A stretch of 64,000 nt of DNA, taken from assembly GCA_006218065.1 (NCBI GenBank), contig VBWE01000001.1, positions 317,063-381,062 of the forward strand, read 5' to 3'. Within the stretch, counting starts at the first letter, position 1; each line of letters opens with the position of its first letter. Positions 45,664 to 57,855 of the stretch are shown here, piece by piece. The notes below the pieces were generated by a model. That model saw only the letters and a program-made list of their open reading frames with translations, had not been told where the DNA came from and made no database searches. The stretch comes from Bacteroidota bacterium. GTDB taxonomy: Bacteria; Bacteroidota; Bacteroidia; Palsa-965. The position numbers and the translations under genes are program-made.

Positions 45664-48489
45664 ATGAAACAACTCAAAAAAACGCTCTCGGTTTTTTTCA
45701 TCTTGTCGGTTTTCTTTTCAGAATCTGTCCGCGCCCAGGTTGTTACTGCAACAGGAGACACGCTCATTTGCCCTCCGGGAACAGCAACGCTGGCGGCATC
45801 CACTACGCTGACCACCACCACAAACTATTCGATCGCGTCAATCCCGTATGTTCCGTATTCGTATAACTCCGGAACATTTATTGCGATGACGGACGACTCG
45901 CAGCAGGGTCCGTTTCCTATCGGGTTCAACTTCGAATTTTTCGGTGTTTGTTATACAGACTATTATATCGGATCAAACGGCTGGGTTGCTTTTTCCCCGG
46001 AAGCAACAACATTCACCTCCGCGCCGATTCCTTCAACAAACCCGTCGGTTCCTGCAAACTGTATTATGGGTCCCTGGCAGGACTGGCATCCCGGCATTGC
46101 CGGCGGACCGTATATCAATTATGTGATGCAGGGTGTCGCGCCTTTCCGACGCCTGATTGTTTCCTGGAACAACTGCCCGATGTTTTCGTGCACAACCACA
46201 CTTGGAACTTTCCAGATCGTTATTTATGAAACGACCAACGTTATTGAAAACTACCTCCTGGTAAAACCGAATTGCCTCGCCTGGGCCGGCGGAACAGCGG
46301 TGCAGGGATTGCATGATCCGACACGTACTATCGGGCTCACCGTTCCGGGACGCAACAGTACGCAGTGGACGGCAAACAACGAAGGATGGAGATATACTCC
46401 TTCGGGCGCCCCGACAATTTCCTGGTACCAGGTTGGTAATCCGACGGTACTCGGCACAGGAGCAACCTTCAATGCATCGCCGTCTTCAGCAGCCAATTAT
46501 GCTGCTGTTGTAACGGACGTTTGCACCGGCAACTCGTTTTCCGATACCGTCAGCGTAGGCATTCTCCCGCCTCCGACAGCAGGCACGGCAACGGTTGCTC
46601 CGCTCGCGGTATGTTCGGGACAAAGCGCTACACTCGTCCTCGGCGGAAACAGTGGCGCGATTCAATGGCAGGTTTCTCCCAACGGAACATCCTGGTTCAA
46701 TATTCCCGGCGGAACGAATGATACGCTGAGTACAGGACCGGTATCTTCTTCGCTATACTTCCAGGCGATTGTTTCAGCCGGACCCGGCGAATGCGGAACG
46801 GCGACGAGTAACATTGTTGTTGTTACCGTAAACCCGGCGCCACCGGCAGATGCAGGACTTAACACGACGATCTGTTCGGGCGACAGCGCAACGCTGACGG
46901 CAACCGGAGGAGTATCCTACAGCTGGATGCCCGGTTCTGGTTCCGGTGCGTCGATTACTGTTGCGCCTTCAACGAACACGACATACACCGTAACGGTAAC
47001 TGATGGAAACGGCTGCACGGCAACGGACCAGGTTACTGTCAGCACCAGCGGAATCAGCACAACGGCCGGACCGGATATTACGATCTGTTCCGGCGGACAG
47101 GGAACGCTCGTGGCCAATGCCAGCGGAGCAACCGCGTACCTGTGGACGCCAGCTGCCGGATTAAGCAACGATACTATTTCCAACCCGGTTGCAAACCCGA
47201 CAACAACATCAACCTATGTTGTGACGGTTACGAATGCGAACGGATGCACAGGAACGGATACAATTACAGTAAACGTTACTCCTGCACCGGTGGTTCTCGC
47301 AAGTAATGATACCGCATTGTGCACAGGCGGATCAGCAACATTAACGGCAACAGGAGCAACGACATACACCTGGCAGCCCGGCAACCTCACCGGATCATCG
47401 GTAACGGTTACTCCCGCAACAACCACAACGTTTGTCGTAACAGGAGATAACGCCGGTTGTCTGAATACGGACACCGTTGTCGTGTCGATCACGCCGCCGC
47501 CGGTCGCTTTTGCCGGGCCGGATTTCGGTATTTGCACAGGAGCGCAGGGAACCCTGAATGCGACCGGCGGAACAGCATACAGCTGGGCGCCCAGTTCCGG
47601 AATACTCGGCAATCCGAACCAGGCCAGTGTAACCATTGCACCGACAACAACAACGACATATACCGTTACCGTAACAGGTGCAGGCGGATGCATTTCAACA
47701 GACCAGATCACGGTAACGATAAACGCGCTTCCGTCGGTTACCGCTACGGCCAATTCGCCCACCATATGCTCCGGCGCAAGCACGGGACTATCTGCCGCAG
47801 GCGCATCCAGCTACACCTGGACTCCGAACAGCAACCTGACCAACCCGACCAGCGCCGCCCCGACCGCAAACCCGACCGCCACCACAACCTATACGGTGAT
47901 TGGCGTGGATGTGAACGGCTGCAGCGATACGGATATGGTTACGGTAACGGTGATTCAGCCGCCGGTAATCACAGGCTATTACAGCACACCGACGCCCTGC
48001 GGAGATACCAGCGGAACGATCGTGCTCGGTAGCGTTTCGGGAAGCGGCGGACCGTATACGTACACATTAAACGGAAACCCGGTAACACCCATCAACAACA
48101 CGATCAACTCGCTCAACCAGGGTAATTACACCGTGCAGGTAACCGATCAGTACGGTTGTACAAGTACCATTTCCACCAGCGTGGGACTTGACATGACGCA
48201 GCTCTCGCTCAACGGCGCCGCAAGCCCGATGATAGGCGTAGCGCCGCAGCCGGTCGGATTCGGAAGCCAGACAGGCGGTGGAATCAATAACGTGATCTGG
48301 GATTTCGGCGACGGAAGCACGCCGGTAAGCGGCAGCAACCCGACACATACCTACGGTGCACCGGGAGTTTATATGGTTGTGGTCATGGGCTACAACGACC
48401 TGCTGATGTGTACCGTTTACGATACATTATATATAGAGATCTTCCCTGAAGCGATCGTAGTCGTTCCGAATGTTTTCACACCGAACTGA
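45664..48489 (+). CDS. T9SS type B adhesin-like protein, C-terminus truncated by frameshift
   Basis: The 941-residue frame has a signal peptide (KTLSVFFILSVFFSESVRAQ). Its N-terminal module of about 270 residues (GFNFEFFGVCYTDYYIGSNG ...) is unrelated to that of its paralogue. From about 46567 it carries the same Ig-like repeats and PKD-like domain, then IVVVPNVFTPN and a premature TGA at 48487-48489. The remaining sorting domain continues one base out of phase from 48483 to 48689. The break is at the same nucleotide as in the 42809 gene but the lost segment is shorter, so these are two separate deletions or two assembly faults at one site. Confidence 0.8.
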   Translation: MKQLKKTLSVFFILSVFFSESVRAQVVTATGDTLICPPGTATLAASTTLTTTTNYSIASIPYVPYSYNSGTFIAMTDDSQQGPFPIGFNFEFFGVCYTDYYIGSNGWVAFSPEATTFTSAPIPSTNPSVPANCIMGPWQDWHPGIAGGPYINYVMQGVAPFRRLIVSWNNCPMFSCTTTLGTFQIVIYETTNVIENYLLVKPNCLAWAGGTAVQGLHDPTRTIGLTVPGRNSTQWTANNEGWRYTPSGAPTISWYQVGNPTVLGTGATFNASPSSAANYAAVVTDVCTGNSFSDTVSVGILPPPTAGTATVAPLAVCSGQSATLVLGGNSGAIQWQVSPNGTSWFNIPGGTNDTLSTGPVSSSLYFQAIVSAGPGECGTATSNIVVVTVNPAPPADAGLNTTICSGDSATLTATGGVSYSWMPGSGSGASITVAPSTNTTYTVTVTDGNGCTATDQVTVSTSGISTTAGPDITICSGGQGTLVANASGATAYLWTPAAGLSNDTISNPVANPTTTSTYVVTVTNANGCTGTDTITVNVTPAPVVLASNDTALCTGGSATLTATGATTYTWQPGNLTGSSVTVTPATTTTFVVTGDNAGCLNTDTVVVSITPPPVAFAGPDFGICTGAQGTLNATGGTAYSWAPSSGILGNPNQASVTIAPTTTTTYTVTVTGAGGCISTDQITVTINALPSVTATANSPTICSGASTGLSAAGASSYTWTPNSNLTNPTSAAPTANPTATTTYTVIGVDVNGCSDTDMVTVTVIQPPVITGYYSTPTPCGDTSGTIVLGSVSGSGGPYTYTLNGNPVTPINNTINSLNQGNYTVQVTDQYGCTSTISTSVGLDMTQLSLNGAASPMIGVAPQPVGFGSQTGGGINNVIWDFGDGSTPVSGSNPTHTYGAPGVYMVVVMGYNDLLMCTVYDTLYIEIFPEAIVVVPNVFTPN
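46567..48486 (+). repeat. 1.9-kb paralogous block, copy 2
   Basis: It aligns with 43501-45415; both end at the same TTTTCACACCGAAC sequence, beyond which each gene has a different deletion. Confidence 0.8.
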
Positions 48490-48689
48490 AAGATGCGAAA
48501 TACACCATTTACAACCGCTGGGGTCAGCTTATCCGCACCATTCAAAGCGTAACTACCGGCTGGGACGGAAAAACCGAAGGTGGCAATGATGCAGAGGATG
48601 GCGTGTACTATTATATTCTCGAAGCCACCGGTTTTGACGATAACGTGAAAACGGTTACCGGGTTTGTTCAGCTGATCCGGGGCAAGTAG
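48483..48689 (+). pseudogene. Out-of-frame remnant of the type B sorting domain (45664 gene)
   Basis: Translation from 48483 gives ELKDAKYTIYNRWGQLIRTI, then SVTTGWDGKTEGGNDAED, GVYYYILEA and TGFVQLIRGK before TAG. This retains the YNRWG motif missing from the other remnant and lacks only the 'xDGxNDxF...' stretch. The bases GAAC at the junction also start the retained segment, suggesting a microhomology deletion or a mis-joined assembly. Confidence 0.85.
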
Positions 48690-48712
48690 AAATAAAGACT
48701 TCAGAAGAAGTC

Positions 48713-48836: not shown

Positions 48837-48881
48837 AACTTTCAAAATATTTTGAAAGTTCGAAAATTTGATTGATCTTTG
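48837..48881 (+). promoter_or_regulatory. Perfect 24-bp palindromic operator overlapping a promoter
   Basis: AACTTTCAAAAT is followed at once by its exact complement ATTTTGAAAGTT (48837-48860). The right half supplies a -33-like TTTG (48851-48854); 19 bp later GATCTTTG (48874-48881) approximates TAnnTTTG. The regulator's ATG follows at 48886. A dimeric GbsR/MarR-type regulator bound here would block RNA polymerase, so autoregulation of the operon is likely. Confidence 0.75.
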
Positions 48882-48885
48882 AAAC

Positions 48886-49392
48886 ATGAAACTCGATGAA
48901 GCCAAAGAAAAATTTATCCAGGCCTGGGGAACATTAGGCACGAGCTGGGGCGTAAGCAGAACGATGGCCCAGGTTCACGCCCTTTTGCTGATTTCCCCCG
49001 ACGCGCTGAGTGCAGAGGATATCATGGAGCAGCTAAGCATCTCGAGAGGTAATGCCAACCTGAATATCCGCGCCCTGATCGACTGGGGACTTGTTCAGAA
49101 AGAACTGAAACAGGGCGAACGCCGCGAATTTTTTTCCGCGGAAAAAGACATCTGGAAAGTATTCCGACAGGTGGCCAAAGAACGCCGGAAGCGCGAACTC
49201 GAACCCATGATGCAGGTGCTCGAAACGCTCCGCGAAGTAGAGGGCGACCGCCGCGACAGGAACACAAAAGCATTTACGGAAAGCATAGACGGGATTTACA
49301 AATTTGCCGGTAAAGCCGACCGGACCCTCGAAACGCTGATCAAAGCCGACGAGCACTGGTTCCTCGGCTCGGTCATGAAAATTATTAAATAA
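48886..49392 (+). CDS. GbsR/MarR family transcriptional regulator
   Basis: This 168-residue protein has a winged helix-turn-helix at about 20-95 (MAQVHALLLISPDALSAEDI, then EQLSISRGNANLNIRALIDW, with the wing at KQGERREFFSA). A long C-terminal dimerisation helix follows (100-150). The 'SISRGNANLNIRAL' recognition helix is typical of the GbsR subgroup of MarR-like regulators. It is the first gene of a seven-gene operon, with a 7-nt gap to the next gene, and probably binds the palindrome just upstream. The inducer is unknown. Confidence 0.88.
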   Translation: MKLDEAKEKFIQAWGTLGTSWGVSRTMAQVHALLLISPDALSAEDIMEQLSISRGNANLNIRALIDWGLVQKELKQGERREFFSAEKDIWKVFRQVAKERRKRELEPMMQVLETLREVEGDRRDRNTKAFTESIDGIYKFAGKADRTLETLIKADEHWFLGSVMKIIK

Positions 49393-49399
49393 CGCAGCC

Positions 49400-49804
49400 A
49401 TGAAAGCCATCCGCATCGTCGATTTATGTCTCCAGGGACTCATCCTTGTTATTGCAATGGGGTGCGCAGCCGTGATCGGCAAAAATGATGACAAACTGAT
49501 TTACGTGGCCCTGCTGCAGATTCCCATGGGCATCCTGCAACTGATCAGCGCCATCGTTACTTCGGCAGCCTCGTGGAAAATCGCCAAAGAATTCATGCTT
49601 GTGTACTGGATCTGGGTGGGTGTTTATTTTTTCGGCCTGGGACTTTTTGCCATCCTGGACATGGAAGACGTAAACGTAGCCTGGTTTTTCTCGGCCTGGT
49701 GCATCGCGATCTATTATTTCGTGGCGGGCATTCTCATCGGCAGGAGAGAAGCGCGGAAAGCCGAACAACAGCAGTACTGGCAAATGCCGTACCCGCCGCA
49801 ATAG
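49400..49804 (+). CDS. Small four-helix membrane protein A
   Basis: The 134-residue protein has four predicted membrane helices (IVDLCLQGLILVIAMGCAAV; LIYVALLQIPMGILQLISAI; FMLVYWIWVGVYFFGLGLFA; WFFSAWCIAIYYFVAGILIG). It ends in a short basic and Gln-rich tail. It is a paralogue of the next gene's product: both keep 'WFFSAWxIAIYYxxxxxxxxR' in the last helix. The family is unknown to me. The 7-nt gap to the regulator indicates cotranscription. Confidence 0.75.
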   Translation: MKAIRIVDLCLQGLILVIAMGCAAVIGKNDDKLIYVALLQIPMGILQLISAIVTSAASWKIAKEFMLVYWIWVGVYFFGLGLFAILDMEDVNVAWFFSAWCIAIYYFVAGILIGRREARKAEQQQYWQMPYPPQ

Positions 49805-49870
49805 CGGTTTTTTTTGAGCAGAAGTTTCAATAAATATCGAAAATACTGAACGAACAAAAAAACAAAGATC

Positions 49871-50263
49871 ATGAGAACCTTCAAAATCATCGACGCATCC
49901 CTGCAAACCATCTTCCTGCTGGCGGCATTAGTCGGCGTGTTCACGCCGTTCCTCATCCTGTACGCCATGTTTTTCATCGGCCTGCTTCAGTTGACTACAG
50001 CCTTGGTTACCACCATCCTCTGGCGGAAAGAAGCGAACAGAACGGCGGTCAATATCCGCACCTACTGGATCATGGTGATCGTTTATTTCGCCGGGCTTGC
50101 GGTTCTTTACGCGGCACATTCCGCGGGATTTATAGATGAGATCATTACCGGCATTTGGTTTTTCTCCGCCTGGATCATCGCGATCTACTATTACCTGCTC
50201 ACGCTGCGTATGGCTTTTGCCAAAGAAAAAACGGATTCCCAAATCTTAATGCGACAGTCATGA
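49871..50263 (+). CDS. Small four-helix membrane protein B
   Basis: This 130-residue protein resembles the preceding one: four helices starting IIDASLQTIFLLAALVGVFT, with GLLQLTTALVTTILW and the shared IWFFSAWIIAIYYYLLTLRM. It ends with a cytoplasmic basic tail. Tandem duplication is the simplest origin. It overlaps the next gene by four bases (ATGA), implying coupled translation with the thiol oxidoreductase and perhaps a physical complex with it. Confidence 0.75.
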   Translation: MRTFKIIDASLQTIFLLAALVGVFTPFLILYAMFFIGLLQLTTALVTTILWRKEANRTAVNIRTYWIMVIVYFAGLAVLYAAHSAGFIDEIITGIWFFSAWIIAIYYYLLTLRMAFAKEKTDSQILMRQS

Positions 50264-51123
50264 AAACCACGGACAAAAAAGCGATTATCTACGATAATTC
50301 ATGCCCCATGTGCGCCATGTACACGGAGGGATTTACCCGCTGGGGCATTCTGAAAAAAGAAAACCGGGTAGCATTTGCCGAACTCGATACGCAGCAATTC
50401 ATCGCGCAGCTTGATCCCGAACGCTCACGCGATGAAATTCCCCTGGTTGACCTGGAAGGCGGAAAAACAATCTACGGGCTGGATGCGCTGCTGTTCATGC
50501 TCTCGGAGAAAATTCCCGCCCTGACATATATTTTCCGCGTGCAGCCCGTGTACTGGTTTTTCAAAAAACTGTACAAACTGATTTCGTTCAACCGGCGCGT
50601 GATCGTGGGCGGACGCTATAAAAAAGAAAAGATCGACTGTGCGCCCCATTTCAACCTGAAATACCGGGTGGTGTTTATGCTGTTCGCAGCCGCATTCGCT
50701 ACATGGATTACCTACCTGTTTGGCGAAGCGGTTGCCACGGCAAACGGAACGAACCTGCTTCCCGCATGGACTGCACACGCGGGCTGGTTTGCCGTGGCTG
50801 CCTGCTCCGCCGGCTGGCTGCTGCACGGACTGGTTGCTGCCGCGATACTGAAAGGAGAAACGAGAATTGAATATTTTGGGCAGATGGCCGTGCTGCAGAT
50901 CATCGGCGTCGCGCCTTTGATAATCGCCATCGCTTTTCAGAACACAGCGGTTTATGTTGCGGCCGGTGCTGCGGTTTTTTCCGTGCTGGTGAGTATGGCC
51001 CTGATGACCTGGCAGCATTTGCGCCGGATGAAAAATAACGGCTGGTCGGCCGGCTGGACCTTGACCTGGGCGGGAACGCTCCTGGCTTCCATTGCTGCAG
51101 TTGCGCTGACCGGCAGAAACTAA
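50260..51123 (+). CDS. DCC1-like (DUF393) thiol oxidoreductase fused to membrane helices
   Basis: ATG at 50260 overlaps the previous stop. Of 287 residues, 1-115 are a DCC1/DUF393 thioredoxin-like domain with the redox motif YDNSCPMCAMY (Cys15, Cys18) and a 'GLDALLFMLSEKIPAL' segment. The remaining half has four membrane helices (VVFMLFAAAFATWITYLF; WFAVAACSAGWLLHGLVAA; MAVLQIIGVAPLIIAIAF and the two after it, VYVAAGAAVFSVLVSMAL and LLASIAAVAL, could make five). DCC1-like proteins are thought to catalyse dithiol exchange, but their substrates are largely unknown. Confidence 0.85.
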   Translation: MKTTDKKAIIYDNSCPMCAMYTEGFTRWGILKKENRVAFAELDTQQFIAQLDPERSRDEIPLVDLEGGKTIYGLDALLFMLSEKIPALTYIFRVQPVYWFFKKLYKLISFNRRVIVGGRYKKEKIDCAPHFNLKYRVVFMLFAAAFATWITYLFGEAVATANGTNLLPAWTAHAGWFAVAACSAGWLLHGLVAAAILKGETRIEYFGQMAVLQIIGVAPLIIAIAFQNTAVYVAAGAAVFSVLVSMALMTWQHLRRMKNNGWSAGWTLTWAGTLLASIAAVALTGRN

Positions 51124-51135
51124 AACAAGCAAACG

Positions 51136-51819
51136 ATGAACCTCCTGAAAAAAATTCCGATACGTTTTACCGGCGAACTGCACGACGTGAAGCTGGTGAA
51201 TTTTTACATCGACATGCGCGAACTGGACGGCCTTGTTCCCGGAAACATTGCCGTACGTGATTTTCACGGGCGCGCGATGATCTCGATGGTGAACGTGATG
51301 CTGCGGAAAATGCACCCGGAAATTATCCCGGGCCTGGGTTATTTTGATTACCGCCACATCGCTTTCCGTTTGCTGGTAGAAGATGCCGGCCTGAACGGCG
51401 GAACGAACAAAGGCATCTTTTTCCTGAAATCGTTTACCGATCAGCCCGTAATTATGCAGGCCGGCGGTTTGCTGACGGACTATAACCTGGAACTCGCCGA
51501 AATACGCTGCATCGACCGGATGCTGGAACTGAACCAGGGAGAGAAAAAAATAAGCTACGCGCTGGATCTTTCTGCTGCGGGAAAGCCGGACAGGAATCTC
51601 CTGGAAACCGTTTCCACGCTCGACCGTGCGTATTCAGCAGCCGGGAACGAATTGCGAATGGTGAGAATCATGCGCGAACGCTGGCCGCTCCGCCCGGTGG
51701 ACTGCTACCATTTCGAAACGAATTTTTTTGAAACAGCCGAACTGGCGGGCGTTTTTGTGGTGGACGATACGATCCGCTACGAATGGCTTCCCGCGGAAAA
51801 TATACGTCCATGCGCATAA
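51136..51819 (+). CDS. Acetoacetate-decarboxylase-fold-like hypothetical protein
   Basis: The 227-residue soluble protein has no signal peptide. The motifs 'LVPGNIAVRDFHGRAMISMV', 'YRHIAFRLLVED' and 'GIFFLKSFTDQPVIMQAGGL' resemble, distantly, the DUF2071/YqjF group with an acetoacetate decarboxylase-like beta-barrel; the fold assignment is tentative. It lies 12 nt after the DCC1-like gene and overlaps the SDR gene by 10 bases. A second, clearer DUF2071 protein is two genes further on, so a related pair may act on similar small molecules. Confidence 0.65.
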   Translation: MNLLKKIPIRFTGELHDVKLVNFYIDMRELDGLVPGNIAVRDFHGRAMISMVNVMLRKMHPEIIPGLGYFDYRHIAFRLLVEDAGLNGGTNKGIFFLKSFTDQPVIMQAGGLLTDYNLELAEIRCIDRMLELNQGEKKISYALDLSAAGKPDRNLLETVSTLDRAYSAAGNELRMVRIMRERWPLRPVDCYHFETNFFETAELAGVFVVDDTIRYEWLPAENIRPCA

Positions 51820-52757
51820 TCATTTTAGGAGCAAACGGCCAGCTGGGCCGCGAAATATACAGCATGCTCGACCAGAAAATGCCCGGCGCGGAAATTATCG
51901 CCGCGGTCAGGAAAAAACACCTGCACTTCGAAGGTTGTACCGGCGACCGGCAACACCGCTCCGTGGTTTTCGACTTGTTCGCGGATGATTTCGGGAAACT
52001 CGGGAAAGCGGATTTGCTCATCAATTGCATCGGATCGATTACCGGGAAAACGGAAAATGATTTCCGGAAAATCCACGTAGGTGTTACGCAGCTTATCCTG
52101 CGGCATCGCGAAAAACTCGGAAACCCACGCATCATCCAGCTCTCAGCACTTGGCGCGGATAAAAACAGCGAATCTCTTTTTATGCGCAGCAAGGCGGAAG
52201 CAGACGAACTTTTGCTGCAGCATAAAGATGTACTGGTCATCCGGCCATCCATCGTATGCACACCGGGAACGCGCATCATAAAAAAAACAGAAACGCTCAA
52301 AAAAATCGCCGTCCTGTTTTTTAATTGCATTCCTTTTCCCGCGGGAGCGCTTGAAACGGAAATTCAGCCCGTGCTTGCCCGCGATCTTGCGGAACTGGTT
52401 TGGCGCTGCGCCGAAAACATGCCGGAAGAAAAAATAATCGAAGCAACGGGCCCGGAAATAATTACGCTGCGCAGCCTGCTGAAAACGGCGATTCCTGCGG
52501 CGCGGATAATTCCCGTAAACCAACGTTTCTGCGACGGGTTTTACGCCATCGCCGCACCGCTGATCAGGCGCTGGATGTCGGAAGAAGAATGGCTGCTGCT
52601 GCGCGGAAAAAATACAGGCACAAACCGGGCGATGGAAAAAACGCTGGGCCGGAAACCGGGATCAACAGATGCTTTCTGGCAGGAAGAACTGCTGCCGGAC
52701 CCGGCAAAAAAGAAAAACAGGATAATACGTCAATCCTATGCTTTCGATGTTTCCTGA
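51810..52757 (+). CDS. Atypical short-chain dehydrogenase / NAD(P)-binding protein
   Basis: ATG at 51810 begins right at the Rossmann motif MRIIILGANGQLGREIYSML (GxxGxxG). The 315-residue protein has the 'DLLINCIGSIT' strand, a 'VGVTQLIL' helix, IIQLSALGAD and a 'RPSIVCTPG' segment of atypical (NmrA/complex I-type) SDRs. The usual YxxxK pair is replaced by 'SKAEADELL', so catalysis in the classical sense is uncertain. It overlaps the genes on both sides (10 and 20 bases), a sign of tight co-translation. It may reduce or simply sense a lipid- or quinone-like substrate. Confidence 0.85.
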   Translation: MRIIILGANGQLGREIYSMLDQKMPGAEIIAAVRKKHLHFEGCTGDRQHRSVVFDLFADDFGKLGKADLLINCIGSITGKTENDFRKIHVGVTQLILRHREKLGNPRIIQLSALGADKNSESLFMRSKAEADELLLQHKDVLVIRPSIVCTPGTRIIKKTETLKKIAVLFFNCIPFPAGALETEIQPVLARDLAELVWRCAENMPEEKIIEATGPEIITLRSLLKTAIPAARIIPVNQRFCDGFYAIAAPLIRRWMSEEEWLLLRGKNTGTNRAMEKTLGRKPGSTDAFWQEELLPDPAKKKNRIIRQSYAFDVS

Positions 52758-53526
52758 AGCGGGAGCTGTCCCGCAACAAAAAAACGGCACGTTTGAATGG
52801 CGTGCAAAAGAACAGGTGCAGTCCCGCGTTTTTATGCGCGCCGCCTGGCGCAGGCTGATCAATATTACATATGCGATTGATCCAAACCTGCTCGCGCCGC
52901 ACCTTCCAAAAGGCGTATCGCCCGACGTGGTTGACGGTTCCGCGTTTGTAAGCCTGGTGCCGTTCAGCTTCGAAGACGTGAGTTTGTGGGGCTGGCGTAT
53001 TCCTTTTCACGGGAAGTTCGCGGAAATGAATCTTCGTTTTTACGTGAAATCCCGTGAGGGCCGCGGCGTGGTTTTCCTGCAGGAATGCGCACCGAAAGCC
53101 GCCGTGGTGTGGATGGCGCGCAGGAAGTACAACGAATCGTACGTACGTTTTCCGCTCGAAGAAACCGTCATCCAGAAAACAAACAGCATCGTTGTCCGCC
53201 ACGAGCTGATCTGCAAAGGCATAAAACATACCGTTGAAGCCGAAAGCGCGCTGAACAGTTATGTTCCGGATCCGGGCTGCATGGATGATTATTTTAAAGA
53301 ACTCGAACTGGGTTTTGGAACCGGCAAAGACGGTGTTACGCGCATTTACCGCATCAAACATCCGCCCTGGGAAATTTTTCCCCTGCTCCGCATGAAAATC
53401 GATCTTGATTTCGGGCAGGTGTTCGGAAAAAAATGGGCCTTTCTTGCTAAAGAAAGACCCATCAATATGGCTTTGGTAAAAGGTTCGCCGGTCAGTGTAC
53501 TGGATATCGAGCGGTTCGAAGCATAA
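52738..53526 (+). CDS. DUF2071 (YqjF-like) protein
   Basis: This 262-residue protein has the DUF2071 start 'WRRLINITYAIDPNLLAPHLPKGVSPDVVDGSAFVSLV', shown here in parts: WRRLINITYAIDP, LAPHLPKGV and VDGSAFVSLVPF. 'MNLRFYVKSREGRGVVFLQE' follows. The family has an acetoacetate decarboxylase-like fold with no proven reaction. No signal peptide is seen. It is the last gene of the seven-gene operon and ends three bases before the convergent 53530 gene, leaving no room for an independent terminator. Confidence 0.88.
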   Translation: MLSMFPEAGAVPQQKNGTFEWRAKEQVQSRVFMRAAWRRLINITYAIDPNLLAPHLPKGVSPDVVDGSAFVSLVPFSFEDVSLWGWRIPFHGKFAEMNLRFYVKSREGRGVVFLQECAPKAAVVWMARRKYNESYVRFPLEETVIQKTNSIVVRHELICKGIKHTVEAESALNSYVPDPGCMDDYFKELELGFGTGKDGVTRIYRIKHPPWEIFPLLRMKIDLDFGQVFGKKWAFLAKERPINMALVKGSPVSVLDIERFEA

Positions 53527-53529
53527 ACG

Positions 53530-54264
53530 CTATCGTCGTTTCAGCACCTTGTATGATTTTCGCTCGCCGTTCGCGAAGGTTACTTCGATCAGGTAAATGC
53601 CGCTTTCCCAGCGCTCAATCGAAATGACTTCCGGGTGCCCGTTGTAAGTGAATATTCCCCGCCCGAGGATATCGAAAACATCCACTTTCGAAATATTGGT
53701 TTTGTCCGGCCCGGGCAGTACGAAGAGTTCGGCATGCTCGAGGTTGAAGTAGAAATAAATATTGTTCGGGGTAATGCGTCCGTTCGACGGGGCAACGCCC
53801 GTGGGACCGAGAACAACTAAGCTGTCCGTCAGCGAGTCGAGTGTATTTACGCCCAATCCCCCGGAGGCCGGCCAAACCACGATGATGTTGTTGCCGATTC
53901 GCAGCGGCCCGGTCGGGTTGGTGTTTTGCGTATGCGCGTAAACGGGTATAGTCAGTGTTACACTGTCATTCGGTGCGAGGAAAAAATTCGGAAGCGAAAG
54001 GGAGTCGTAAGGAACAAGCTGCTGTATCGTGGTATCCTGTAAAAAAGCATTGATGACCAGGTTACTGTTAAAAACGCCGGGTCCGTGATTAAAAAGAGTA
54101 AGGTTAACCTGCACCGTGTCACCTTCGGCAATAGAATCGGGCAGCCCGGTGATTTTGGAAATGCTCAGGTTGACCTGCGCCTGGGCCCGGAACGGAAGAG
54201 CGGAGAACGACAGGAACAACAGGAATACTGCTGTTTTTCGGATAGAATTTATAATGTGATCCAT
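53530..54264 (-). CDS. T9SS type A protein with CARDB-like domain
   Basis: The 244-residue protein has a signal peptide (TAVFLLFLSFSALPFRAQAQ). A single CARDB/Ig-like beta domain follows (LPDSIAEGDTVQVNLTLFNH; LAPNDSVTLTIPVYAH). The type A sorting tail is short: VDVFDILGRGIFTY, ESGIYLIEVTF and KSYKVLKRR. The usual YPNP motif is weak (ITPNNIYFYF region). It is divergent from the 54351 gene. A minus-strand TATATTTG element (54293-54286) lies 22 nt upstream. Confidence 0.75.
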   Translation of the reverse strand: MDHIINSIRKTAVFLLFLSFSALPFRAQAQVNLSISKITGLPDSIAEGDTVQVNLTLFNHGPGVFNSNLVINAFLQDTTIQQLVPYDSLSLPNFFLAPNDSVTLTIPVYAHTQNTNPTGPLRIGNNIIVVWPASGGLGVNTLDSLTDSLVVLGPTGVAPSNGRITPNNIYFYFNLEHAELFVLPGPDKTNISKVDVFDILGRGIFTYNGHPEVISIERWESGIYLIEVTFANGERKSYKVLKRR

Positions 54265-54285
54265 GTAGCCGCTTTTTTGTCAAAA

Positions 54286-54293
54286 CAAATATA
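54286..54293 (-). promoter_or_regulatory. Bacteroidetes-type -7 element for the 53530 gene
   Basis: Minus-strand TATATTTG matches TAnnTTTG, 22 nt upstream of the ATG at 54264. It lies close to and partly interleaved with the divergent promoter. Confidence 0.5.
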
Positions 54294-54297
54294 ATCC

Positions 54298-54325
54298 TTG
54301 TAAGTTAATAAAAAGAATAAATTTG
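54298..54325 (+). promoter_or_regulatory. Bacteroidetes-type promoter for the 54351 gene
   Basis: TTG (54298-54300), a 17-bp spacer and TAAATTTG (54318-54325) match both parts of the Bacteroidetes promoter. The ATG follows 25 nt later. Confidence 0.65.
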
Positions 54326-54350
54326 AAAAAATCTTACGCGTTCAGAAGCC

Positions 54351-55811
54351 ATGAAAATACTGCAGAATATTATCGGAATGATGAACAAGGAGGAGGTTCG
54401 TCACCTTAAACTTTTTATGGGCCGCACCAATTCCGGATCCGACCGCAAAGACGCGGACCTGTTTGATTTTATCCGGAAGTATTATCCCGAATACGACGAG
54501 GAAAAAATTCAAAAGCGGCTGTACGGAAGCAAAGACAAAAACGCGCTGTACCGGCTGAAGAACAGGCTGCTCGACGACCTGGGCAAAAGCCTTTCACTGC
54601 AGTATTACGATGACAACGATTTCAACCTGGTTGTGAACAGCTTAGTTCTTTCGCGTTTATTCCAGGCGAAAACACAGCCCAGGATCGCTTTGCACTACCT
54701 GGCCAAAGCGGAGAAAAAAGCGCAGGAAAGCGATGCCCTCGACCTGCTGGATATTATTTACAGCGAATTTATCCGGCTTTCGCAGGAAACCCTCGAGCTG
54801 AACCCGACCGAATATATCCGGCGCAGGAAAGCAAACCGCGAACAACTGAACCGGCTGCAGGAAATCGACGATATCCTGGCGGAAGTGATCTTCAAGGTGC
54901 GGACCACGCAGAATTTTTCGGGACAGGATTACCGCATCATCGAAACGCTGCAGCAAAAAGTGAATGAATTTTCACGCCGCAGGGAAGCCCGGAACAGCGT
55001 GCAGCTCCGTTTCAAGATATACCAGTCGGTGAGCAGGATCCTGCTGCAGAAGCATGATTACCCGCTGCTTGAAAAATACCTGCAGCAAACGTATTCCGAT
55101 TTCACCCGGCAGGCGCTTTTTTCCAGGAACAATCACGACACGAAACTGCAGATGCTCACCTACCTGGCCAACGCGACGTTTAAAAACAACAAGCACGATC
55201 TTTCACTGGATTATGCGGCGAGCCTGAAAGAATCCATGGGTGAATTCGGCGGCATGCTGCACGACAAGTATCTTTTCTTTTATTACAATACGCTGGTGAT
55301 AAACTACTCGCGGAAAGACCTGAACCGGGCGATCGAAATTCTCAACGAAGCGAAGGACAGCCCGGTGATTAAAAAACTTCCTTTTTATACGGTGTTCATT
55401 TACGCGAACCTCGCCGTCGCCAATTTCGACAACAGGAATTACAAGCAGGCCATCCGCAACCTGGTGAAACTGATGATGGAACCGGGTTACCCGAATCTCG
55501 ACCGGACGCTTCGCCTGCGGCTGGGCGTGGCGGAACTGATTATCCGTTACGAACTGGGCGACTTCGACATCCTGGAACACCGGATCGACCAGGTGCGCAA
55601 GGAGTTTGCCGACCTGTTGAAAACCAAGAGCGGAAAACGTCACCAGGATATGATCGGTATAATCGCCGAGATGGTGACGACCGCTTCCGTAAAAAAGGAA
55701 AAGAAGCTCATGCAGAAAATCGACCGCCTCGTTTCCAGCGCCAACAGCGAACAGGCGAATGAAAGCGATATTATCAATTACAATGTATGGCTGACGGCGA
55801 AAACCGCATGA
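54351..55811 (+). CDS. Helical-repeat hypothetical protein (paralogue of the 17765 gene)
   Basis: The 486-residue protein is soluble, helical and has no signal peptide. The N-terminus (LQNIIGMMNKEEVRHLKLFM) parallels that of the 17765 product, and the central part has TPR-like pairs (LALHYL-, LVNSLVLSRLFQAK, LAVANFDNRNYKQAIRNLVK). It probably acts as an interaction scaffold. Two copies 37 kb apart with different neighbours suggest a lineage-expanded family. I do not recognise a named domain. Confidence 0.7.
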   Translation: MKILQNIIGMMNKEEVRHLKLFMGRTNSGSDRKDADLFDFIRKYYPEYDEEKIQKRLYGSKDKNALYRLKNRLLDDLGKSLSLQYYDDNDFNLVVNSLVLSRLFQAKTQPRIALHYLAKAEKKAQESDALDLLDIIYSEFIRLSQETLELNPTEYIRRRKANREQLNRLQEIDDILAEVIFKVRTTQNFSGQDYRIIETLQQKVNEFSRRREARNSVQLRFKIYQSVSRILLQKHDYPLLEKYLQQTYSDFTRQALFSRNNHDTKLQMLTYLANATFKNNKHDLSLDYAASLKESMGEFGGMLHDKYLFFYYNTLVINYSRKDLNRAIEILNEAKDSPVIKKLPFYTVFIYANLAVANFDNRNYKQAIRNLVKLMMEPGYPNLDRTLRLRLGVAELIIRYELGDFDILEHRIDQVRKEFADLLKTKSGKRHQDMIGIIAEMVTTASVKKEKKLMQKIDRLVSSANSEQANESDIINYNVWLTAKTA

Positions 55812-55863
55812 AGGTTGTTTCTTCGGGACATTGAGCATTTTTTGTCCCGGCAAAAACGAAAAA

Positions 55864-57855
55864 CTATTTATTCCGTTTCGGGCCGCGGCCCATGCGCTCC
55901 AGTATTTTGACCTGCGCTTTGTACATGCTGTCGTAATACTGCCCTTTTGCACTATTCCCCTTGTTGAAGTAAAACGACGAGAGGTTCGAGAGCCGATCGA
56001 TATTTCCCGGGTTTACCATCGCGGCCACTTCATAAAAACCCGCGGCGAGATCTTTATTTCTCGACGTGTTCTGGATGAGTGAAGCTGCAGTCATATACGG
56101 CTGATCGGATTTCGGGTTATTCTCCGCCGCCCGGCGCAGGATATGGAGACAGGAAGTAAACCGTCCTTTCAGCGCTTCCAGTTTGGCGAGCTGTTCGTAA
56201 GGCGCCATGTACGTGGAATCGGCTTCGATCGCCGCGTCGAAATAAAATACGGCCGAATCGCGCAGGTTGGTATTGAGGTGCGCCATGCCCATGTTGAACA
56301 AACCTTCTTTGTATTTCGGGTTCAGCGTGATCGATTTCCGGAAAAAATATTTGGAGGAATCGTACTCGCGCATGAAAAAGAATGTCGAACCGAGATTGCT
56401 CCAGGCCGTGGCATAATCGGGATAAATTTCCACCGCTCTGCGGAAATGATATTTAACGATCGTGAGCGAGTCGTAATGTTTATGCGCCAGCGCGCTGCTC
56501 GAAACCAGCGAACCGAAAAGTAAGTTTGCCTTGGCCGAATTGTCGAGATGCTCCATGTCGTTTCCGTAGAGCGTCATCTTGTTTTCCCAGTCCTCGTTGC
56601 GCGCAATACTGCGCAGGCCGAATGCAAAAACAAGTAAAAGGATCACCGTCCGAGGCCACCGGCCTGTTGACCATTTATAAGCCGAAAGATCGAGTTTTCC
56701 TGCGCGGAAAAGCAGTACGATGACCACGATGCAGAAACCGAGCGCCGCGGAATATGCAAAACGTTCGGCCATCAGCCCCGGCGTTGCACGCACAATGTTG
56801 GAGAACATGGCGATGTTGGCCAGGTAAAAAATAATGCCGAAGGTGAGCAGGCTTTTTTTCCGCAATGTTTTGATGCAGTAAAAACCGAGCGCCGCATGAA
56901 AGACAAGCGAAACGATGGAAACGACATTGGACCAGTCAACCAGCGGGATATACTCGAAACCATAGTAGTACGAAAGCGGGTGCGGAAAAATATGAATAAG
57001 CACATACTGTGCGAGCACATAAAACCCGGTGGCGCTTCGCTCGGGAATTCCGGCGTTGGTGGCGCGGAAAGGATTTTCGTGCAGCAGCAGTTCACGCTTC
57101 GCCGCAGGCAGCCCGCTCATGATCAGGTAAAGAACGACCAGCGCCAGGATCAGCGGAACGAGATACATCGCCGCACGCGAAAATTTCATGTCGGTGAAAT
57201 ACCACATCGCCAGCGGGATAAGAACCAGGTAGGGCAGGATGGAAAATTTGCAGAGCATCCCGGCCAGAAACGCCAGCGGGTAAAAAACCAGGTAAAACCA
57301 TTTTCCCGTTTCGTAATGCCGCCAGGCCATCTGCATACCGATGATGCAGAACAATAAACTCAGCAGCTCGTCCCGGCACTTGATATTGTCCACCACTTCG
57401 GTATGCAGCGGGTGCACGGCAAAAAGCAGGCTGATGAAAAAAACGACCCAGTCGCTATACCCGTGAAGCCATTTTTTCAGCAACCGGAAAAGCAGCACAA
57501 TGGTGAGCGCATACAGCAGCAGGTTGATGAAATGACTTACATGCGGCTTCTGCCCGAAGATGGAATGTTCGATCGCAAATGCCGTGAGTGTCATCGGGCG
57601 GTACTCGTAGCCGGAACCGTCGCTGTTGAAAAACGTCCGCGATTTGAATATTTCCGGGATGGCGGAAACGCCTTTGTTGGTGAGTGCGTTGCTGCCGTTT
57701 GTATAAAATTCGTCGTCGAGCGCATACCCGTTGAAAACCGAATTGATGAAAACGGCAAACACAACCAGCACAAGCATCAGCTCGAAACGGTTGTTTTTGA
57801 TGAACCCGTTGCCGGCGGATTCGGAAGCGGCGGTTTTCTTTTTCTGTTTGGACAC
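55864..57855 (-). CDS. TMTC-like GT-C membrane glycosyltransferase with TPR domain
   Basis: The start is GTG at 57855; no ATG is suitably placed. The 663-residue protein has a first membrane helix followed by the GT-C motif LDDEFY (Asp47-Asp48), then about ten helices with FAVHPLHTEVVDNIKCRDEL in an early loop. A C-terminal TPR domain follows (about 430-650: YPDYATAWSNLGSTFF, LNPKYKEGLFNMGMAHLN). Eukaryotic TMTC proteins of this layout transfer mannose to protein Ser/Thr from a lipid-linked sugar. The bacterial members may glycosylate exported proteins. Its tandem paralogue lies 52 bp upstream on the same strand. Confidence 0.87.
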   Translation of the reverse strand: MSKQKKKTAASESAGNGFIKNNRFELMLVLVVFAVFINSVFNGYALDDEFYTNGSNALTNKGVSAIPEIFKSRTFFNSDGSGYEYRPMTLTAFAIEHSIFGQKPHVSHFINLLLYALTIVLLFRLLKKWLHGYSDWVVFFISLLFAVHPLHTEVVDNIKCRDELLSLLFCIIGMQMAWRHYETGKWFYLVFYPLAFLAGMLCKFSILPYLVLIPLAMWYFTDMKFSRAAMYLVPLILALVVLYLIMSGLPAAKRELLLHENPFRATNAGIPERSATGFYVLAQYVLIHIFPHPLSYYYGFEYIPLVDWSNVVSIVSLVFHAALGFYCIKTLRKKSLLTFGIIFYLANIAMFSNIVRATPGLMAERFAYSAALGFCIVVIVLLFRAGKLDLSAYKWSTGRWPRTVILLLVFAFGLRSIARNEDWENKMTLYGNDMEHLDNSAKANLLFGSLVSSSALAHKHYDSLTIVKYHFRRAVEIYPDYATAWSNLGSTFFFMREYDSSKYFFRKSITLNPKYKEGLFNMGMAHLNTNLRDSAVFYFDAAIEADSTYMAPYEQLAKLEALKGRFTSCLHILRRAAENNPKSDQPYMTAASLIQNTSRNKDLAAGFYEVAAMVNPGNIDRLSNLSSFYFNKGNSAKGQYYDSMYKAQVKILERMGRGPKRNK

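Follow-up and report, generated by a model that had tools for sequence, protein, structure and literature searches.

An operon headed by a CydE-like GbsR regulator in a Bacteroidota bacterium, and the likely link of its predicted membrane redox module to menaquinone

What do the GbsR-type regulators of Bacteroidota control? The question is raised by a seven-gene cluster on contig VBWE01000001.1 (assembly GCA_006218065.1) of a Bacteroidota bacterium of the Palsa-965 lineage, within the 64,000-nucleotide stretch analysed here (positions 317,063 to 381,062; hereafter the window). In this cluster, a gbsR gene is followed by genes for small membrane proteins, a DCC1-like thiol-disulfide oxidoreductase (DCC), a short-chain dehydrogenase/reductase (SDR) and two DUF2071 proteins. 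A 2018 survey of GbsR proteins found 'no consistent picture' of targets for the Bacteroidetes members (PMC6207618), so that a conserved GbsR regulon is new information. By a modest preponderance, our results favour the view that the cluster is a target operon of a CydE-like GbsR repressor and encodes a membrane redox module, most likely acting on the menaquinone pool or on quinone-linked electron transfer. The anatomy of the operon, its conservation, its operator and the occurrence of that operator at menaquinone and respiration genes of relatives are all supported by computation.

The cluster consists of seven consecutive open reading frames (ORFs) on the plus strand (48886-53526; Table 1). 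An earlier sequence-only reading had described a GbsR-headed group of seven genes spaced by 7, 66, -4, 12, -10 and -20 nt, and all ORFs and gaps were reproduced from the ORF list and the sequence. It had also reported a palindrome at the promoter. This element, AACTTTCAAAATATTTTGAAAGTT (48837-48860, 24 bp), is indeed perfect, and its specific sequence is kept in relatives. GbsR orthologues and gene 5 were each sought independently in 396 Bacteroidia genomes, so that the cluster itself did not serve as bait, and a GbsR orthologue was found in 139 genomes. Of 86 gbsR promoters, 29 carry the exact operator and 67 carry it with at most two mismatches, compared with 0 of 1,720 shuffled sequences; the site usually lies 23-25 nt 5' of the gbsR start codon. 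In 54 of the 396 genomes, the 16-base pattern is present without mismatch, versus 2 for the reversed control. The palindrome, designated O1, is the only exact match in the 5.26-Mb window genome. A position weight matrix (PWM) learned from Bacteroidia operator sites scored O1 at 35.6 and a second site, O2, at 20.7 across the 64-kb window, the next best site reaching 3.5. Second sites are common, being found within 150 nt after gbsR in 58 of the 86 loci. The pattern AACTTTCA-N8-TGAAAGTT is thus likely to be the operator of GbsR. Exact matches within ORFs (L245, L246, L247) were counted as chance, and matches at L205, L209, L215, L217, L219, L220, L222, L333 and L335 lie outside the assigned targets.

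This operator connects the window regulator to a characterized one. The GbsR-type protein CydE, which represses cytochrome bd, gives a DNase footprint on TATTTCAGAAATTTCTGAAAGTTCA (PMC6096048). The footprinted sequence fits TTTCA-N8-TGAAAGTT and scores 24.3 with our matrix, a value reached by none of 200,000 random sequences. In its operators (O1 35.6, O2 20.7), the window locus resembles the CydE subgroup; it lacks the adjacent cydAB genes typical of that subgroup. We therefore liken the window regulator to CydE but do not file it as CydE. In the CydE-cydAB system of Alishewanella and the CioR-cioAB system of Chromobacterium, as predicted for the window, a GbsR-type MarR regulator heads its own operon, with autorepression and a quinol-linked theme, and the operator sequence is shared with the CydE system. 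Those operons contain cytochrome bd genes, whereas the window operon, from a different phylum, contains genes for DCC, SDR, DUF2071 and small membrane proteins. The sequence-only reading knew of no described system of this composition. As to the gene combination, we found in the literature outside subscription papers none that pairs DUF2071 with an operon and none combining two of DUF393, DUF2071, the DCC family, GbsR, TIGR01777 and DUF4166. What is new is the regulon; its regulator and its operator belong to a type already known from CydE.

The assignment of gene 1 as a GbsR-type MarR regulator relies on a MarR winged helix and a GbsR-type dimerisation region. It is MarR_2/GbsR-like with a MarR_2 score at the Pfam cut-off, and its profile finds the GbsR template MJ223 (1ku9) as the nearest solved structure (E 1.8e-21, positions 3-152). 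The closest curated model is the choline regulator CudC, and membership in a superfamily that includes B. subtilis GbsR and OpuAR might suggest an osmotic-stress operon for glycine betaine or choline. The window locus shares with GbsR, OpuAR and CudC the family and, likely, the MJ223-type fold, but it differs from them in its regulon. The CudC match (53 bits) is far below the cut-off of 218, the operator matches the CydE footprint, and neither gbsAB nor an Opu transporter or other choline/glycine betaine gene was found within the operon. Choline or glycine betaine genes did not stand out in the 86 gbsR neighbourhoods either, which were examined without a screen aimed at them. We regard an osmolyte operon as very improbable and discarded it for the lack of osmolyte genes in the operon. 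As a candidate defence system, the locus was likewise rejected, PADLOC having returned only weak helix-turn-helix matches to gene 1. A second, divergent GbsR paralogue, whose own promoter likewise has this operator, occurs at L255, L256 and L257 (genomes G115, G049 and G086).

If the cluster were a chance neighbourhood, unrelated genes would simply share a promoter. Gene content does differ among genomes, and 17 of the 86 GbsR loci have no downstream kit gene, where the kit comprises the DCC dithiol-membrane protein, SDR, DUF2071, SRPBCC, small membrane proteins and lipid enzymes; some of these 17 may have their kit elsewhere. However, in 13 of 13 genomes a close gene-5 homologue (>180 bits) shares its contig with a GbsR orthologue that is no more than 6 kb away, and unlinked operators precede kit genes. 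This linkage, together with the operator statistics, rules out a chance neighbourhood, to which we give practically no credence. At least one kit gene lies downstream on the same strand at 69 of the 86 loci and at least two at 53, while none was found upstream of GbsR, where about 1.5 kb was covered. The most frequent members are the TIGR01777 SDR (37 loci), DCC (35) and the small membrane family (26), followed by SRPBCC (18), gene-5 type (16), gene-6 SDR (14), CMAS-like (11), gene-7 type (9) and desaturase (PF00487; 4) genes. The TIGR01777 and gene-6 (NDUFA9-like) SDRs never occur together in these loci, with a chance probability of 1.5e-4 that presumes independent loci, which they are not; this mutual exclusion suggests that the TIGR01777 epimerase and the NDUFA9-like SDR fill the same role, as one functional slot.

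A bait search with gene 5 recovered 24 loci, about 10 of them from genomes already in the 396-genome set. Every one of the 24 contains DCC, 22 have a GbsR gene next to it and 17 have the SDR. They include Rhodocytophaga, Xanthocytophaga, three species of Pontibacter, Botryobacter, Solitalea and Chryseosolibacter, as well as Roseivirga, Kapaibacterium and Flavobacteriales metagenome-assembled genomes (MAGs). Gene calls in the relatives' loci are ORF-based, and shared ancestry within the class means that genome counts are not independent events. Co-occurrence in conserved order across several genera, which the sequence-only reading had named as support for a system, was thus found in many genera. 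The fixed set of seven genes that it envisaged was not: the stable part is GbsR, the operator, DCC and an SDR slot (TIGR01777 or NDUFA9-like), and the other members swap. One MAG has its gene-5 homologue split in two ORFs (L181; G056:C32:8149-8792), a probable frameshift.

The single operon of the sequence-only reading also requires revision. Because O2 sits 25 nt before gene 3 and a terminator-like hairpin follows gene 2, the cluster is probably two co-repressed transcription units rather than one; the hairpin counts as weak, terminator hits in the region being no commoner than by chance. Most simply, there would be two promoters under repression, and in the window lineage gene 2 would have been inserted, or have arisen by duplication, ahead of O2. 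Consistent with the paired small membrane proteins described earlier, gene 2 has a tandem paralogue in gene 3 (34% identity, E 1.8e-14).

Table 1. Positions of the predicted operators, genes and hairpin of the gbsR cluster (window coordinates; TM, transmembrane).
Feature	Position	Strand	Basis or remark
Putative operator O1, perfect palindrome AACTTTCA-N8-TGAAAGTT	48837..48860		25 nt 5' of gbsR
Gene 1, predicted GbsR-type MarR-family repressor, 168 amino acids	48886..49392	+	profile matches; orthologue in 139/396 Bacteroidia genomes
Gene 2, small membrane protein, 4 TM-like segments	49400..49804	+	gene 3 paralogue
Terminator-like hairpin and T-run 3' of gene 2	49795..49816 (hairpin 49795-49808)	+	weak
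Putative operator O2 (AAGTTTCAATAAATATCGAAAATA)	49822..49845		PWM 20.7; 25 nt 5' of gene 3
Gene 3, small membrane protein, 4 TM-like segments	49871..50263	+	gene 2 paralogue
Gene 4, DCC1-like thiol-disulfide oxidoreductase domain (CPMC) and helical membrane domain	50260..51123	+	Pfam PF04134
Gene 5, DUF2071, acetoacetate-decarboxylase-like fold	51136..51819	+	PF09844; predicted structure
Gene 6, atypical SDR of NDUFA9/complex I 39-kDa kind	51810..52757	+	profile match
Gene 7, second DUF2071 protein	52738..53526	+	PF09844, E 9e-39

The operator also marks genes away from gbsR in other Bacteroidia. It precedes kit genes with gbsR elsewhere at L204, L214, L221 and L248, and DCC genes at L166 and L174, both without an adjacent gbsR. 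The unlinked kit targets are SRPBCC-membrane/luciferase-domain genes (G351), small membrane pairs (G300, G198), a DCC-TIGR01777 target (G116) and a TIGR01777 gene (G285). Exact or near-exact operators further precede genes for MqnE, MqnC, NuoF, DAHP synthase, polyprenyl synthase, and CydA-like and CcmF-like proteins, in support of the redox/quinone link guessed by the sequence-only reading. The names MqnC, CydA-like, CcmF-like and polyprenyl synthase denote family resemblance only, since the MqnC proteins score just under their NCBIfam cut-off and the other three well under theirs. Among 70 mqnE promoters (the 30 best-scoring and 40 picked mainly from GbsR genomes), eight have a site scoring at least 19.9, the next best scoring -1.6 and about none being expected from shuffled sequences. 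Five of the eight were newly found; further mqnE operators are those of G302, G369 and G316. G012 carries one operator at mqnE and another at gbsR, with a gene-6 homologue coming after gbsR. Genome G302 has two mqnE copies, one of them preceded by a perfect operator (L251). In G115 (L342), an operator-like site lies 71 nt upstream of a gene for a CydA-like bd oxidase, an instance of the CydE-type layout within Bacteroidota.

These targets also bear on membrane-lipid remodelling, in which the kit would modify or transport fatty acyl lipids, and the operator would stand at quinone genes because a membrane-stress signal is shared, not because the substrate is a quinone. The kit of other loci includes a fatty acid desaturase (PF00487), a CMAS-like methyltransferase and SRPBCC (lipid/polyketide-binding) proteins. 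Such members are found in a minority of the 86 loci (4, 11 and 18, respectively) and not in the window, and the unlinked operator targets are mainly menaquinone and respiratory genes. We consider lipid remodelling possible but unlikely.

The structural genes of the operon are consistent with redox chemistry at the membrane. Gene 4 contains the CPMC dithiol domain fused to membrane helices that had been described earlier: it scores 33.9 bits against PF04134 (cut-off 27.8), which places it among the DCC1-like oxidoreductases. Its Cys15 and Cys18 are invariant among 18 aligned homologues, and CxxC is present in 24 of 25 DCC homologues. For the fold of the membrane domain, Foldseek gave no significant match with the AlphaFold2 model of gene 4 (predicted local distance difference test, pLDDT, 90.3), and VIA-align gave Z-scores of at most 5.6 (helical bundles), with a GST/thioredoxin-like N-terminus (Z ~5). 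Given these weak results, the membrane domain was assigned to no family and none was excluded.

Gene 6, the atypical Rossmann protein of the sequence-only reading, is a divergent NAD(P)-binding protein that keeps the Rossmann motif. Its profile finds complex I 39-kDa/NDUFA9 subunits as the best solved structures (E down to 2.3e-26); by this match, it belongs with these proteins, which may be counted in favour of a quinone-linked role. It differs from them in that it is not encoded with nuo genes. In gene 6, the tyrosine of the YxxxK motif of classical SDRs is replaced by phenylalanine. FxxxK is found in gene 6 and most Cytophagales-type homologues, and YxxxK is retained in those of Flavobacteriales MAGs.

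Genes 5 and 7 both exceed the Pfam cut-off for DUF2071 (PF09844). The sequence-only reading had given both an acetoacetate decarboxylase (ADC)-like fold, which structure prediction supports for gene 5. The AlphaFold2 model of gene 5 (pLDDT 91.5) has the ADC fold by Foldseek (E 5e-9) and aligns with 5upb over 204 residues (Z 17.8, root-mean-square deviation 3.7, ~15% identity), which places gene 5 in the ADC superfamily by fold; neither gene 7 nor the gene-5 profile had a sequence match among solved structures. Gene 5 shares its fold with Swit_4259, MppR and ADC, but at ~15% identity and with no invariant lysine across 22 aligned homologues, and thus lacks the Schiff-base lysine of acetoacetate decarboxylase. 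Absence of this lysine from DUF2071 has already been reported (PMC4520260).

A CxxC oxidoreductase and an SDR are also typical protective enzymes, and the operon might serve detoxification of electrophiles, quinones or metals in the manner of MhqR: the signal for GbsR would be a toxic quinone, cyanide, sulfide or a metal, and protection of the cell would fall to the redox proteins. The GbsR-type repressors CydE and CioR control a protective cytochrome bd (PMC6096048, PMC11837568), and the MarR-type MhqR senses quinones (PMC6798810). However, neither a dioxygenase nor an efflux pump nor any classical detoxification enzyme belongs to the kit, and biosynthetic mqn genes would be unusual targets of such a response. 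We judge this explanation rather improbable.

We conclude that a CydE-type regulon is tied to quinone-dependent respiration in Bacteroidia and that the membrane redox operon is its target in the window genome. Several observations weigh against this conclusion. The window genome's own mqnE has no operator (best score -16.5), so that the quinone link comes from other families, and regulators can switch targets. A relaxed scan for a third operator in this genome found only weak sites outside the locus (best 8.5); the operator there appears confined to the GbsR operon. Operators at mqnE occur in 8 of 50 GbsR genomes and 0 of 20 others, a difference that is not significant (p 0.09), and in G302 no GbsR was detected at E 1e-20 despite the mqnE operator. 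Two paralogous GbsR groups (e.g. f39) seem to share the operator; some respiratory targets may therefore be the paralogue's, and in f39 it may be the divergent GbsR that controls the targets, the CydA-like gene among them. No enzyme activity is assignable to the module proteins, and some kit members (desaturase, CMAS-like, SRPBCC) suit lipid metabolism equally well.

For the quinone-linked explanation, we infer the repression and its signal, the assembly of the module and its substrate as follows. A GbsR dimer would bind AACTTTCA-N8-TGAAAGTT at its own promoter and O2 before gene 3, repressing gbsR itself and the structural genes, and a signal from the membrane or the respiratory chain would release it. 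The module would combine the CxxC thiol-disulfide domain of gene 4, anchored by its membrane helices, with the gene 6 SDR, of NADPH-binding type and related to the complex I 39-kDa subunit, the DUF2071 proteins of the ADC-like clan (genes 5 and 7) and the small membrane proteins (genes 2 and 3). Most likely, the menaquinone pool or quinone-linked electron transfer is what this module works on, protects or adjusts. As in the sequence-only reading, a specific enzymatic pathway, redox or lipid/quinone-modifying, may be envisaged.

Genes flanking the operon are conserved in their order. Those for a Por secretion-tail protein, a 486-amino-acid protein and a large protein with a TPR-like C-terminus are syntenic in the relatives G006 and G009 (L015, L020; window 53530-57855), which places the operon at an ancestral family locus, though its content differs. 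The upstream gene (45664-48690) stops right after '...VVVPNVFTPN', and its remaining C-terminal sorting-type domain (LKDAKYTIYNRWGQLIRTIQ...) is in another frame; the gene looks frame-broken, in the organism or in the assembly.

A bolder and more doubtful proposal is that DCC, SDR, DUF2071 and the small membrane proteins form an undescribed module for the chemical upkeep or modification of menaquinone, or for the coupling of thiol oxidation to it. The regulator would be a Bacteroidota-wide GbsR with the quinone pool as its signal; in certain lineages, menaquinone synthesis by the futalosine pathway, complex I and cytochrome bd would be under its control as well. In the literature searched, we found no described regulator of menaquinone synthesis or quinone-linked respiration in Bacteroidetes. 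The GbsR regulators of Bacteroidetes now gain a recurrent target kit, an operator whose sequence is defined and tied to a published footprint and, for the group, a first testable role. DUF2071, DCC and NDUFA9-like proteins, whose bacterial function is unclear, gain a common, testable context. That the operator is found at mqnE, mqnC, nuoF and cydA-type genes and at a polyprenyl synthase gene suggests that menaquinone synthesis and respiration linked to quinones are controlled through it.

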